Part shown: positions 18,172-28,567 of the stretch, one piece after another | How the letters are laid out: the number at the start of each line of letters is the position of its first letter | Numbering within the stretch: the stretch's first letter is position 1 | NCBI GenBank assembly: GCA_013697785.1 | Contig: JACCWE010000158.1 | Location: 1-35,351, forward strand | From: Gemmatimonadaceae bacterium | GTDB lineage: Bacteria > Gemmatimonadota > Gemmatimonadetes > Gemmatimonadales > Gemmatimonadaceae | Direction: 5' to 3' | DNA length: 35,351 bases | Program-made: the position numbers and the translations under genes | The notes under the pieces: generated by a model | Databases searched by the model: none | Told to the model about the DNA's origin: nothing | Seen by the model: only the letters and a program-made list of their open reading frames with translations

Positions 18172-19329
18172 ATGACAGCGACCTCCCTTCCAGCCGACAT
18201 CGCGGACGAAACCAACGCGCGCATCCTCGCGATCTCCGAAGATCGCATCGCGGGCTTTCTCGAGGATCCGTTTGCAAAGATCGCGCAGCTGTCCGGCGTA
18301 GAGGAGCAGGTCGTGCACGCGCGCATCCGCGCGATGCTGAGCGCGGGCACGATACGCCGCGTGCGGCAGACGTTGATGGCGACGAATCTTGCGCCGGGCG
18401 CGCTCGTGGCCTGGCGGATACCGGAGGAGAAGCTCGACTCGGCCTTCGAGTACTTCGTGCGCGACGACCCGTTCTCGGGGCACGTCGTCATCCGCTCGAC
18501 GGACGGCGCGACGCCAGGGTCGAGTTATCGTCTCTGGACGACGCTCAAGGTCCCGCAGGGCTTCTCACGCGAGAAGCACTGCGCGCTTGTCGCCAAGCGC
18601 GTCGGCGCGGACGCTTTTCGCATCATGCCCGCGAAGCGGCTCTTCGCGCTCGGCGTTGGACATGTGCGACGGAAGGGGATGCTTCCGGGATCGCGATCGG
18701 ATGAGCCGGGGCGCGTGATGGACACGAACATCGTCGAGCTGTCGGAGCTCGAGTGGCGCGTGCTGGAGTTGCTCAAGCGCGAGCTCACGGTCGATGAGAT
18801 CGGGGCGATGCCGTGGCTCGTGCGTGCGGAAGAGGCGGGCGTCTCGTATGTGGAATTCCTGCATGTCGCGCGCGCACTGGCAGAGCGGGGAGTGATCGGG
18901 CGCTTCTCGACCTTTCTCGAGCACGTGAAGCCGGACGCCGACGGTGTGCGCGTCACGCGCTACAACGCGCTCTTTCACTGGCGCGTGCCGGAGGGGCGCG
19001 AGATCGAGGCGGGAAAGGAGGTCGGACGCCATCACATCCTCACACATGCGTATTGGCGCGAGGGCGGCGCCGAGTTCGCGAACGTGAACATCATGGCTGT
19101 CGCGCATGGCACCGACAAACAGCTCGTGCTCGATCACAAGGCGGCCATCGATGCGCATCTCGCCGAAGCGGGAATTCCGGTGAGCTATACGAATGTGTTC
19201 TGGGGCGGGCGGAGCGAGATCAAGCCGTCGGAGATCGCGCCCGGCGCGTACGTCGCGTGGCTCCGAAGCGGCGGCGTGGATCCGCAGGCGATGCGCGCGT
19301 CGAGCGAAGAAGAGCCGAGCGCAGCGTGA
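18172..19329 (+). CDS. fused siroheme-decarboxylase-like (AhbA-AhbB/NirDL) Lrp/AsnC-type protein
   Basis: A 385-residue protein made of two tandem Lrp/AsnC-like units. Each has a winged helix (about 10-65 and 185-240) and an alpha/beta domain. The second domain resembles AhbB/NirL-type siroheme decarboxylases: THAYWRE corresponds to the SHCYRR-like motif and FANVNIMAVAHG to the WPYNLFTMIHG-like motif. The first half has the parallel GHVVIRSTDG and YRLWTTLKVP. Family members remove two acetate side chains from siroheme for the alternative haem route or haem d1. Here key motif residues are only partly kept, so a regulator or another tetrapyrrole role is equally open. TATCTT lies 7 bases before the ATG and no Shine-Dalgarno is seen. 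The stop overlaps the next start by one base. Confidence 0.7.
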   Translation: MTATSLPADIADETNARILAISEDRIAGFLEDPFAKIAQLSGVEEQVVHARIRAMLSAGTIRRVRQTLMATNLAPGALVAWRIPEEKLDSAFEYFVRDDPFSGHVVIRSTDGATPGSSYRLWTTLKVPQGFSREKHCALVAKRVGADAFRIMPAKRLFALGVGHVRRKGMLPGSRSDEPGRVMDTNIVELSELEWRVLELLKRELTVDEIGAMPWLVRAEEAGVSYVEFLHVARALAERGVIGRFSTFLEHVKPDADGVRVTRYNALFHWRVPEGREIEAGKEVGRHHILTHAYWREGGAEFANVNIMAVAHGTDKQLVLDHKAAIDAHLAEAGIPVSYTNVFWGGRSEIKPSEIAPGAYVAWLRSGGVDPQAMRASSEEEPSAA

Positions 19330-20570
19330 TGCGATTCGGGATGCGCGCGCTCGTGGTGGGCGGGACGTTCGTGGTCGCGTGCCATGATGCGAGATATGCG
19401 CGAGCGACGCGCGCGACGGACTCGGCGAAGGCGACGGCGCTTCGCGTCGCTTCCGCGAATGCGGGAGGGTGGAGCGATTCGGTGACGGGCTTCAGTGTGC
19501 CGGCGGTGTGCGCGCGCGGCGGCTTGCCGGTGCCTCGGAGGGCCGCGCGCGTGGAGACGGCGCCGAAGACGCGCGTGGATAGTATGAAGCGCGCGAAGGC
19601 GGACTCGATGCACATGGCGGGCGCGAGTGCGGATTCGGCGCACGTTGATACGGCGCGAGCCGATACGACGCCCGTCGCCCCAAAATCCCCGCGCGCCGCG
19701 CACGCCGACTCCCTCGCCCGTGCCCGCGCGAAGATGCACGCCGATTCGCTCGCCGCTATTGCGCTGTTCACCGATTCCGCCGCGACGCACCGCCGCGCGG
19801 GCTCGCTCTTCCCTGGCTGTCGCGTCGTCGCCTACTACGGCAATCCGATGTCGAAGCGCATGGGGATCCTTGGCGAGATCAAGCCGGACTCGATGCTCGC
19901 GCGGCTCGCGAAGCAGGCCGCGGCGTATGCGGCAGTCGACAGCGGGCGCCCCGCGCTTCCGGCGCTCGAGCTGATCGCCACGGTCGCGCAGGCCGGGCCG
20001 GGAAAGAGCGGACTGTATCGTGCGCGCATGCCCGACACGCTGATCGCTCGCGTGATGGGGTGGGCCGAGGCGCATCATTATCTCGTGATCCTCGACATCC
20101 AGACGGGGCGCAGCACGATGGCGGCGGAGCTCGAGCCGCTCATGAAGTATCTCGCGAAGCCGTACGTCCACCTCGGGCTCGATCCCGAGTTCTCGATCGG
20201 CACGAAGAAGATTCCCGGGAAGGTGATCGGCCGTATCGATGCGACGGACGTCAACGCGGTGTCGACGATGCTGGCGGCGCTGGTCGACTCGCTCAAGCTG
20301 CCGCCCAAGATGCTCATCGTGCACCGGTTCACGACGCCGATGCTCTCGAACCATCAGAAGATCAAGCTCGACCCGCGCGTGCAGATCGTGATCGACATGG
20401 ATGGCTTCGGCCCGCCGCGTCTCAAATACGGATCGTACAAGGCGTACGTGCACGATCGTCCGGTGCAGTTCGCAGGATTCAAGCTGTTCTACAAGAACGA
20501 CAAGCCGATGTTGACGCCGGCGCAGGTGATGGAGATGGATCCGGTGCCGCTGTTCATCATGTACCAGTAG
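19329..20570 (+). CDS. lipoprotein with Asp-Ser repeat linker and TIM-barrel-like domain
   Basis: A 413-residue predicted lipoprotein of no named family. The signal segment ends FVVAC with lipid-attachment Cys18. Residues about 30-165 form a low-complexity Ala/Arg/Asp/Ser linker with repeated A-D-S or V-D-S/T units. The C-terminal domain (about 170-413) starts CRVVAYYGNP, contains GILGEIKPD, the strand HHYLVILDIQTG, LGLDPEF and ends near MEMDPVPLFIMYQ; the spaced strands and acidic residues (ILDIQ, LGLDPEF, VIDMDGFG) suggest a (beta/alpha)8 hydrolase-like barrel, reminiscent of GH18/GH25 folds, but no catalytic signature is certain. The ATG overlaps the preceding stop as TGATG, so it is co-translated with the siroheme-decarboxylase-like protein. 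It probably sits in the outer or inner membrane facing the periplasm. Confidence 0.75.
   Translation: MRFGMRALVVGGTFVVACHDARYARATRATDSAKATALRVASANAGGWSDSVTGFSVPAVCARGGLPVPRRAARVETAPKTRVDSMKRAKADSMHMAGASADSAHVDTARADTTPVAPKSPRAAHADSLARARAKMHADSLAAIALFTDSAATHRRAGSLFPGCRVVAYYGNPMSKRMGILGEIKPDSMLARLAKQAAAYAAVDSGRPALPALELIATVAQAGPGKSGLYRARMPDTLIARVMGWAEAHHYLVILDIQTGRSTMAAELEPLMKYLAKPYVHLGLDPEFSIGTKKIPGKVIGRIDATDVNAVSTMLAALVDSLKLPPKMLIVHRFTTPMLSNHQKIKLDPRVQIVIDMDGFGPPRLKYGSYKAYVHDRPVQFAGFKLFYKNDKPMLTPAQVMEMDPVPLFIMYQ
19575..19755 (+). repeat. degenerate Asp-Ser/Thr codon repeat in the lipoprotein linker
   Basis: At least seven V/A-D-S/T units occur in about 60 codons, spaced by Ala/Arg/Lys/His/Met residues. 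The DNA repeats are imperfect, so this is a protein-level low-complexity tether, not a recent tandem DNA duplication. Confidence 0.6.
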
Positions 20571-25742: not shown

Positions 25743-25898
25743 GCGCGTGCTCCTCAGCTCACATTGCTCGCCATTCGGGCAGTCTCTCGCCCCGCACTTT
25801 GCGCATCCGCTCCCGACGCGCCACATTCACCTCGCTGCGCGCGTTCGCCCTCGCGCCCCGCGGCCCCCACGTCGCCACGCCCCACCATGGAGCACCGC

Positions 25899-27212
25899 AT
25901 GCTGTTGCCTCTTCGCTCGCTTGCAGCGCTTTCGCTGCTCGCCCTCGCCCCCTCGCTCTCCGCGGCGCAGGTCACCGCTATCAAAGCGGGAAAGCTCGTC
26001 GACACCGAGAAGGGAACGGTCGCGACCAACCAGATCATCATCGTGCGCGACGGCAAGATCGAGGCGGTCGGCCCATCGCTCGCGATTCCCGCAGGTGCGA
26101 AGGTCATCGACCTCTCGAACATGACCGTGCTCCCGGGTCTCATCGACAGCCACACGCACGAAGCCGATGGCGTTCTCCCCGAGGACAACGGCGACCCGCG
26201 CGCCGTGCTCTTCCACACGTCATCCGAGATCGTCCTCGCGGCGGTACCGAGTGTGAAGACCACGCTTATGGCCGGCTTCACGACTGTCCGCGATCTCGGC
26301 ACCTATCGCGCACTCAACGATGTCGCGCTCCGCGATGCGATCGCTCGTGGCGACATCCCGGGCCCGCGCATGTACGTTGCTGGCGCCTACATCACGATCA
26401 CCGGCGGCGCCGGCGCGATGACCGGCGTGTCGCCCGACGTGATTCTTCCGTGGGACATGAAGTTCGGCGAGGCGAACAGCCCCGACGAAGTGCGCCAGAA
26501 GGTTCGGCTGCTCGCCGCGCAGGGCGTCAACGTCATCAAGGTGTTGTCCACCGGCGCGGTGCTCACGCACGGCTCCAACACGAAGTCGCAGGAGTTCACA
26601 GCTGCGGAGCTCACCGCCGCCGTCGAGGAGGCACACGCCTTCGGCCTCAAGGTTGCCGCGCACGCGCACGGTGCAGATGGGATCAAGAATGCGATCCGCG
26701 CGGGTGTCGCGTCGATCGAGCACGGCACGTACATGGACGACGAAGCCATCCGGCTCATGAAAGAGCACGGCACCTTCTACTCGGCCACCCTCGATGTGCA
26801 CGACTGCATCGTCGCGAAGCCGAACCAGCCCGCGGACTTCCTCGCGCACAACAAGGGAATCGCCGAGACCCACTACAACGCGTTCAGGAAAGCCGTGCAG
26901 GCCGGTGTGAAGATCGCATTCTCCACCGACGTCCCCGTGTGTCCATACAAGGATGCCGGAAAGGAGTTCGCGTACATGGTGAAGTACGGGATGACGCCGA
27001 TGCAGGCGATCCAGGCCGCGACGACGGGAGGCGCTGAGCTGATCGGCGTGCTCGACAAGGTCGGCTCGATCAGCAAGGGGAAGTACGCTGACATCATCGC
27101 GACGAATGGCGATCCCACGAAGGATGTGACGCAGCTCGAGCACGTGCAGTTCGTGATGAAGGACGGCAAGGTGTACAAGACCTCGGATGCGGCGGTGCCG
27201 GTCACGGACTGA
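25899..27212 (+). CDS. exported metal-dependent amidohydrolase (copy 1)
   Basis: A 437-residue amidohydrolase of the imidazolonepropionase/dipeptidase-like group. A signal peptide (residues 1-23, ending SLSAAQ) exports it. Metal-site residues are intact: His85 and His87 (DSHTHE), Lys214 (VNVIKVLSTG, the likely carbamylated lysine), His255/257 (AAHAHG), His275 (SIEHGT) and Asp344 (FSTDVP). GFTTVRDLGT and MTPMQAIQAATTGGAELIG are typical. Relatives cleave dipeptides or carboxy-terminal Pro/Lys/Arg residues. The ATG at 25899 is chosen since GGAG is 6 bases upstream and the signal peptide begins there; the in-frame ATG at 25887 is possible. The 156-base gap before it is pyrimidine-rich; I see no promoter I would defend. 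A close copy follows. Confidence 0.9.
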   Translation: MLLPLRSLAALSLLALAPSLSAAQVTAIKAGKLVDTEKGTVATNQIIIVRDGKIEAVGPSLAIPAGAKVIDLSNMTVLPGLIDSHTHEADGVLPEDNGDPRAVLFHTSSEIVLAAVPSVKTTLMAGFTTVRDLGTYRALNDVALRDAIARGDIPGPRMYVAGAYITITGGAGAMTGVSPDVILPWDMKFGEANSPDEVRQKVRLLAAQGVNVIKVLSTGAVLTHGSNTKSQEFTAAELTAAVEEAHAFGLKVAAHAHGADGIKNAIRAGVASIEHGTYMDDEAIRLMKEHGTFYSATLDVHDCIVAKPNQPADFLAHNKGIAETHYNAFRKAVQAGVKIAFSTDVPVCPYKDAGKEFAYMVKYGMTPMQAIQAATTGGAELIGVLDKVGSISKGKYADIIATNGDPTKDVTQLEHVQFVMKDGKVYKTSDAAVPVTD

Positions 27213-27259: not shown

Positions 27260-28567
27260 ATGACCGCACGCGCTCGCGCGCTCATCACCCTCGTGCTGTT
27301 CCTCGCGACCGCCTTTCCCACGCTCGCTCAGGTGACGGTAATCAAGGCGGGGAAGCTGATCGACACCGATCGCGGCACGGTCGCGTCGAACCAGATCATT
27401 CTCATTCGTGACGGGAAGATCGAGGACGTCGGGCCTTCGGTGAGCATCCCCGCAGGCGCACGCGTCATCGATCTGTCGAAGATGACGGTGCTACCGGGAC
27501 TCATCGACAACCACACGCATCTCTCCGATGGCGTCTTCGAGTCCGACGGCGACCCGCGCGTCGTGCTCTACCACACCAAGTCCGACGACGTGCTGGCTGC
27601 GATTCCGAATCTGCGCACGACGCTGATGTCGGGGTTCACGACGGTGCGCGATGTCGGCACCTATCGCGCGCTCAACGACGTCGGCATTCGCGATGCGATC
27701 GCGCGCGGCGACATCGTCGGCCCGCGCATGTACGTCGCTGGCGGATACATCACGATCACCGGCGGCGCGGGTTCGTTCTCCGGCGTCTCCCCCGACGTGC
27801 AGCTGCCGTGGGACATGCACTACGGCGAGGCCAACAGTCCCGACGAAGTTCGCCAGAAGGTCCGGCTGTTCGCCGCTGCCGGCGTGAACGAGATCAAGAT
27901 TTTGTCGACCGGTGCGGTCCTCACGCACGGCAGCAACAAGCAGGCGCAGGAATTTACGCCGGCCGAGCTGGCGGCGGCGGTGGACGAGGCGCATTCGTTC
28001 GGCCTCAAAGTCGCCGCGCATGCGCATAATGCGATCGGCATCAAGAATGCGGTTCGAGCCGGAGTGGCATCGATCGAGCACGGCACCTATCTCGATGACG
28101 AGGCGGCACGTTTGATGAAGGAGCACGGTACTTCTCTCTCCGCGACGCTCGAGGTGCACGAGTGCATCGCCGGCAATCCCGCCACCCCCGTCGACTTTCA
28201 GCAGCACAACGACGGGATCGCCGACATTCACTATGCTGGCTTCAGGCGCGCAGTGCTGGCGGGCGTCAAGATCGCGTTCTCAACCGACGTGCCGGTGTGC
28301 CCTTACAAAGATGCGGCGAAGGAATTCTCGTACATGGTGAAGTATGGAATGACGCCGATGCAGGCGATCCAGGCGGCGACCGTCGGCGGCGCTGAGTTGA
28401 TCGGCGTGCTCGACAAGCTCGGGTCGATAAAGAAAGGAAAGCTCGCCGACATTATCGCCGTGTCCGGCGATCCGACGCACGACGTGAAGATTCTCGAAAA
28501 CGTCGAATTCGTCATGAAGGAAGGGACGGTATACAAGAACACGGGCGTGGTCACGGCCGTTCAATAG
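27260..28567 (+). CDS. exported metal-dependent amidohydrolase (copy 2)
   Basis: A 435-residue paralogue of the preceding gene, 47 bases downstream in the same direction, with its own signal peptide (residues 1-23, ending FPTLAQ) and GGAG 7 bases before the ATG. All metal residues are kept: His85 and His87 (DNHTHL), Lys213 (EIKILSTG), the AHAH pair near 254-256, His274 (SIEHGT) and Asp343 (FSTDVP). Differences cluster after the first metal motif (HLSDGVFESDGD versus HEADGVLPEDNGD) and around residues 165-180 and 300-320, which in this fold line the active site, suggesting divergence in substrate choice. Peptidase-like scavenging in the periplasm is the most plausible role. Confidence 0.9.
   Translation: MTARARALITLVLFLATAFPTLAQVTVIKAGKLIDTDRGTVASNQIILIRDGKIEDVGPSVSIPAGARVIDLSKMTVLPGLIDNHTHLSDGVFESDGDPRVVLYHTKSDDVLAAIPNLRTTLMSGFTTVRDVGTYRALNDVGIRDAIARGDIVGPRMYVAGGYITITGGAGSFSGVSPDVQLPWDMHYGEANSPDEVRQKVRLFAAAGVNEIKILSTGAVLTHGSNKQAQEFTPAELAAAVDEAHSFGLKVAAHAHNAIGIKNAVRAGVASIEHGTYLDDEAARLMKEHGTSLSATLEVHECIAGNPATPVDFQQHNDGIADIHYAGFRRAVLAGVKIAFSTDVPVCPYKDAAKEFSYMVKYGMTPMQAIQAATVGGAELIGVLDKLGSIKKGKLADIIAVSGDPTHDVKILENVEFVMKEGTVYKNTGVVTAVQ

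Follow-up and report, generated by a model that had tools for sequence, protein, structure and literature searches.

A predicted single-chain sirohaem decarboxylase in Gemmatimonadota genomes without recognisable HemE or HemH

Results

A fused AhbA-AhbB-like protein overlaps a putative lipoprotein

The window, by which we mean the whole 35,351-nucleotide stretch of Gemmatimonadaceae DNA that was analysed, contains two overlapping genes, P0001 and P0002 (Table 1). The TGA stop codon of P0001 (19327–19329) shares its A with the ATG start codon of P0002 (19329–19331), an overlap of stop and start that an earlier note made from the sequence alone had recorded. The same note had seen in P0001 two AhbA/AhbB/NirDL-like units joined in one 385-residue chain, which profile searches and alignments bore out: P0001 contains two PF17805 (AsnC_trans_reg2) and two PF22451 (NirdL-like HTH) domains, with both families above the Pfam cut-offs, and upon alignment with the Desulfovibrio desulfuricans proteins its N-terminal half resembled AhbA and its C-terminal half AhbB, while the full-length chain resembled the NirDL fusion protein of Hydrogenobacter. 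In the PDB, NirDL also gave the best sequence match (4ch7/4czc, E = 2e-15). Because one scan recovered 551 stretches homologous to P0001, chance could be ruled out. Lrp models gave only noise-level matches. P0001 missed the NCBIfam equivalog cut-offs for both AhbA (NF040708, 55.2 versus 140 bits) and AhbB (NF040707, 76.4 versus 125 bits), which places it in a diverged subfamily. The arrangement had been called unfamiliar; the fused chain itself is not unusual, as the Hydrogenobacter NirDL is also one chain. Elsewhere in the window, two tandem and similar amidohydrolase-like secreted proteins were recognised by eye.

Table 1. Positions of the genes, domains and motifs discussed in the text, numbered from the first nucleotide of the window.
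Feature	Position	Strand	Basis or remark
P0001, fused AhbA-AhbB-like sirohaem decarboxylase (predicted), 385 aa	18172..19329	+	Pfam, PDB match, family alignment
N-terminal AsnC_trans_reg2 domain, AhbA-like half	18397..18645	+	PF17805 match, AhbA alignment
HVVIR (His104–Arg108), lining up with iron ligand His115 and with Arg119 of AhbA	18481..18495	+	Alignment, roles from PMC4145669
C-terminal AsnC_trans_reg2 domain, AhbB-like half	18961..19161	+	PF17805 match, AhbB alignment
His292 to Arg296 (HAYWR), aligned with AhbB His98, Tyr100 and proposed catalytic Arg102	19045..19059	+	Alignment, roles from PMC4145669
TGATG, P0001 stop and P0002 start, one-base overlap	19327..19331	+	Sequence
P0002, putative lipoprotein, Asp-Ser-rich tether and TIM-barrel-like domain, 413 aa	19329..20570	+	Judged a local neighbour, outside the pathway
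P0002 residues 165–413, orphan lipoprotein family	19821..20567		Invariant DPEF- and DMDG-type motifs
Amidohydrolase-like secreted protein, first of tandem	25764..27212		By eye
Amidohydrolase-like secreted protein, second of tandem	27260..28567		By eye

P0001 retains the catalytic residues and is predicted to share the NirDL fold

Roles have been assigned to AhbA His115, which binds iron, to AhbA Arg119, and to AhbB His98, Tyr100 and the catalytic Arg102 (Palmer et al., 2014; PMC4145669). The residues of P0001 that align with these five (His104, Arg108, His292, Tyr294 and Arg296) were invariant in all 35 family members that we aligned, which were 55–91% identical to P0001 and came from records labelled Gemmatimonadota, Verrucomicrobia, Planctomycetes, Chloroflexi, Eremiobacterota, Acidobacteria and others, MAG labels being liable to error. 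The earlier description of the motifs as only partly kept holds for the AhbA-side HNYxR motif, which reads HVVIR in P0001 (Val-Val replacing Asn-Tyr), but not for the named residues, all five of which are kept.

The AlphaFold model of P0001 (mean pLDDT 87.5) matched NirDL 4ch7/4czc with E values of about 1e-20 (1.2e-20 for 4ch7) and TM-scores by target of 0.77–0.78, compared with E values of about 1e-5 for the AhbA/B chains and about 1e-4 to 1e-3 for ordinary Lrp regulators. By fold, the fusion is thus closer to NirDL than to plain Lrp regulators. P0001 is very probably an enzyme, with predicted activity as a fused sirohaem decarboxylase. Like the Hydrogenobacter thermophilus protein, it is one chain of two AsnC-like units with the same predicted fold and with histidines on equivalent strands. 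However, the two proteins are only about 20% identical, the P0001 family has longer conserved inserts and invariant motifs of its own (FSTFLEH and WGGxxEIKPSE, for example), and the structural record of NirDL offers no context of haem b synthesis without AhbC. In D. desulfuricans (4czd/4un1), the counterparts of the two halves of P0001 are separate subunits, AhbA and AhbB, which work with the radical-SAM proteins AhbC and AhbD.

The lipoprotein is a lineage-local neighbour

The features previously attributed to P0002, a lipoprotein with an Asp-Ser tether and a TIM-barrel-like domain, were all recovered, the last of them in weaker form. Its N-terminus, MRFGMRALVVGGTFVVAC, provides a plausible lipobox, 11 Asp-Ser dipeptides occur in the protein (six of them within residues 82–155), and the C-terminal domain (about residues 165–413) was modelled confidently, with generic TIM barrels as its nearest folds, albeit as weak matches. 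Searches by sequence found no Pfam or PDB relatives of P0002, and residues 165–413 define an orphan Gemmatimonadota lipoprotein family. Members of the P0002 family are present in 39 of 60 relatives, irrespective of the decarboxylase gene, with up to four paralogs per genome. A member adjoins the decarboxylase gene in all five genomes of the genus, in one further genome (G025) and at loci L025 and L028, with the order reversed in L038; the other carriers either have no homolog or have it on a different contig. The pair is thus lineage-local, and lack of conservation in relatives, which the earlier note had named as counting against its reading, is largely what we found. We judge P0002 to be a local neighbour, having seen no functional link to the decarboxylase.

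A role for P0001 as an Lrp/AsnC-type regulator that senses haem or sirohaem and controls the lipoprotein gene is an idea to which its HTH units and the overlap of the two genes lend some appeal. We nevertheless consider it highly improbable, given catalytic residues that are invariant across many phyla, a structural match to NirDL far ahead of that to Lrp regulators, a lipoprotein family distributed independently of the decarboxylase gene, and orthologs that reside in haem operons without the lipoprotein. The broader proposal of a haem-sensing regulator with an envelope target, put forward in the earlier note, runs against the same kept residues, NirDL-like model and haem-operon orthologs, and gene order together with the phylogenetic profile (the absence of HemE and HemH and the presence of sirohaem synthase, described below) led us to reject it.

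Orthologs of P0001 occupy a slot in the haem operon

In Gemmatimonadota, the haem operon is ordered ccmABC-[gene]-cobA/hemD-hemC-hemB-AKR, where the bracketed slot is that of the decarboxylase gene and AKR stands for an aldo/keto reductase. In L021, L024, L029, L034 and L037, and in genome G008, ccmC and a cobA-hemD fusion flank the ortholog, and hemC, hemB and the AKR gene come next where the contig extends. Orthologs in three records labelled Chloroflexi (L048, L070 and L090) also reside in a haem operon, which in L048 runs AKR, HemQ/ChdC, ortholog, Met8-like, HemA, HemC, CobA-HemD, HemB and HemL. At the planctomycete-type loci (L046, L047, L054, L056, L089 and L091), a flavin-reductase-like gene is found immediately 5′ of the decarboxylase gene.

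No haem genes were recognised in the window, either by eye in the list of ORFs or with haem-gene queries, which matched only an ABC ATPase (34%), in agreement with the earlier note. Contig C63 of the same genome carries ccmABC-cobA/hemD-hemC-hemB-AKR with the decarboxylase slot empty, which suggests that the gene has relocated; a Met8-like gene and hemA are on contig C103, and HemQ/ChdC is encoded on contig C166. The slot is likewise empty in G013, G017 and G024, and relocation of the gene out of the operon is the simplest reading of this emptiness.

Two genomes have a second copy of the decarboxylase gene. In G084 (region 4359–7845 of L224) this copy is 57% identical and lies between a gene best matched by NirJ1/AhbC models and a gene matching TIGR04053/AhbD models, and in G099 (L220) it lies near an AhbC-like match, which suggests separate anaerobic and aerobic sets in each genome.

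Carriers lack HemE and HemH and possess sirohaem synthase

The gene was present in 13 of 60 relatives, representing nine genera, and PF17805 was confined to these 13 genomes, twice in each, that is, only as the fusion. HemE scored above its cut-off in none of the carriers but in 34 of the 47 other relatives, and HemH showed nearly the same pattern (0/13 versus 33/47). Conversely, CysG-N (sirohaem synthase) was found in all 13 carriers but only four of the 47 others, and ChdC in 12 of 13 versus 19 of 47. When evaluated by genus, which ignores deeper kinship, Fisher p values were 4e-5 for HemE, 8e-5 for HemH, 7e-7 for CysG-N and 0.002 for ChdC. Among 48 carriers elsewhere, surveyed in another scan, two had HemE above the cut-off and 45 had ChdC. 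In the control sets, Deinobacterium chartae, a possible culturable carrier, matched PF17805, CysG-N and ChdC but neither HemE nor HemH. Missing HemE does not by itself predict the gene, as 13 relatives (G009, G015, G016, G027, G029, G033, G039, G045, G047, G054, G055, G056 and G058) had neither the gene nor HemE above the cut-off, and none of these had ChdC. HemH was found only in G016 among them, and they may be haem auxotrophs, incomplete genomes or users of a further route.

From homology, retained residues, predicted fold, gene order and this profile, we infer with high confidence that P0001 is a single-chain sirohaem decarboxylase, fusing AhbA and AhbB, that acts in a sirohaem-dependent haem pathway.

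A step without a recognised enzyme

No genome had AhbC above the cut-off, and the 13 Gemmatimonad carriers showed only partial, low-scoring radical-SAM matches. The AhbC model, which is related to AhbD, gave no full-length match in these carriers, which suggests that AhbD may also be absent from them. Elsewhere, a full-length AhbC/NirJ1-like protein was found in 12 of 39 carriers (337–515 bits, compared with a cut-off of 650) and was absent from the other 27. Because the 13 carriers have no recognisable AhbC, one step in them lacks a recognised enzyme if haem is made from sirohaem with ChdC acting last.

We considered two other assignments of P0001. One would place it, like NirDL, in haem d1 synthesis and hence in denitrification, and draws on NirDL being the closest solved structure. 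This we regard as very unlikely, because the related radical-SAM model found no full-length protein in the 13 Gemmatimonad carriers, the neighbouring operon genes are ones for haem and cytochrome c in general, and in cells without HemE and HemH haem b would still need another source. In the other, P0001 would decarboxylate a different uroporphyrin-type substrate, converting for example iron-uroporphyrin III to coprohaem, thereby replacing HemE and skipping AhbC. Such an activity would account for the absence of AhbC despite the retention of ChdC, and a crystal structure of NirDL (4czc) contains an analogue of iron-uroporphyrin III. However, the distribution of CysG-N (13/13 carriers versus 4/47) and the presence of cobA-hemD in the operon both fit sirohaem, and second copies of the gene accompany AhbC-like genes, so that we consider this assignment improbable and retain sirohaem as the predicted substrate.

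A close homolog of the AKR encoded in the haem operon (about 320–360 bits) was present in all nine Gemmatimonad carriers tested and in none of nine non-carriers (at most 138 bits). Its gene is grouped with hemB, hemC and cobA-hemD both in Gemmatimonadota and in two genomes labelled Nitriliruptoria, with the fuller set in L048, and a by-eye comparison with general stress protein 69 lined up the catalytic Asp, Tyr, Lys and His residues of the two proteins. In the other set, an AKR homolog was found in 14 of 24 carriers without AhbC, but also in eight of 11 genomes with an AhbC-like protein, which led us to reject AKR as a universal substitute for AhbC; the homolog is missing from several Verrucomicrobia-labelled genomes. 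As a substitute for AhbC, the operon AKR is a possible but doubtful candidate. At verrucomicrobia-type loci (L057, L068, L073, L080, L083, L093 and L275–L277), the only lead was a radical-SAM gene of HemW-like type, found close to the decarboxylase gene in some genomes and close to the gene for ChdC in others; its product may simply be the haem chaperone HemW.

Discussion

In the pathway that we propose, sirohaem would be made by HemA, HemL, HemB, HemC, HemD-CobA and an enzyme of the Met8/CysG-N type. P0001 would then strip the carboxyls from the C12 and C18 acetates within the barrel that its pair of ferredoxin-like halves encloses, with His104 positioned for iron binding and Arg296 as the driver of the reaction. 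Another enzyme would take off the C2 and C7 acetates, and HemQ/ChdC would complete haem b. This route could be the main source of haem in the cell. P0001 would have gained P0002 as a neighbour on leaving the haem operon, and the operon itself persists on another contig.

More broadly, bacteria of several phyla (judging from loci labelled Gemmatimonadota, Chloroflexi, Eremiobacterota, Planctomycetes and Verrucomicrobia) may reach haem b from sirohaem along an oxygen-tolerant route that combines the fused decarboxylase, an enzyme replacing AhbC, and ChdC, a proposal that we advance tentatively. The replacing enzyme could be the haem-operon AKR in some lineages, with the HemW-like radical-SAM protein as an alternative lead in Verrucomicrobia.

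Parts of this scheme are already known, namely the fused NirDL, AhbA/B, and the combination of the sirohaem route with ChdC in Haloferax (PMC5746218, PMC8305020). Haloferax volcanii shares with the carriers the sirohaem intermediate, two-domain decarboxylases (NirDL/NirGH) and ChdC as the aerobic last enzyme, but it is an archaeon with two decarboxylase chains and with AhbC and AhbD, whereas the Gemmatimonad carriers have no recognisable AhbC. Two published accounts assign the route through sirohaem to archaea and sulphate reducers (PMC11306076, PMC8529089). In the literature that we searched, which excluded subscription journals and preprints, we found no description of the bacterial P0001 family, its replacement of HemE and HemH, or the absence of AhbC, and an earlier description is possible.

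Most likely, this gene and its relatives in many phyla mark haem synthesis that proceeds without the usual haem enzymes and without a recognised enzyme for the next step. Many bacteria from several phyla seem to obtain their haem through sirohaem, most of those tested having no recognisable AhbC. This exposes a missing enzyme for which specific candidates exist, and the gene order allows the question to be tested directly. Two cautions follow for annotation: proteins of this kind can be taken for Lrp regulators in error, and genomes without HemE and HemH need not be those of haem auxotrophs.
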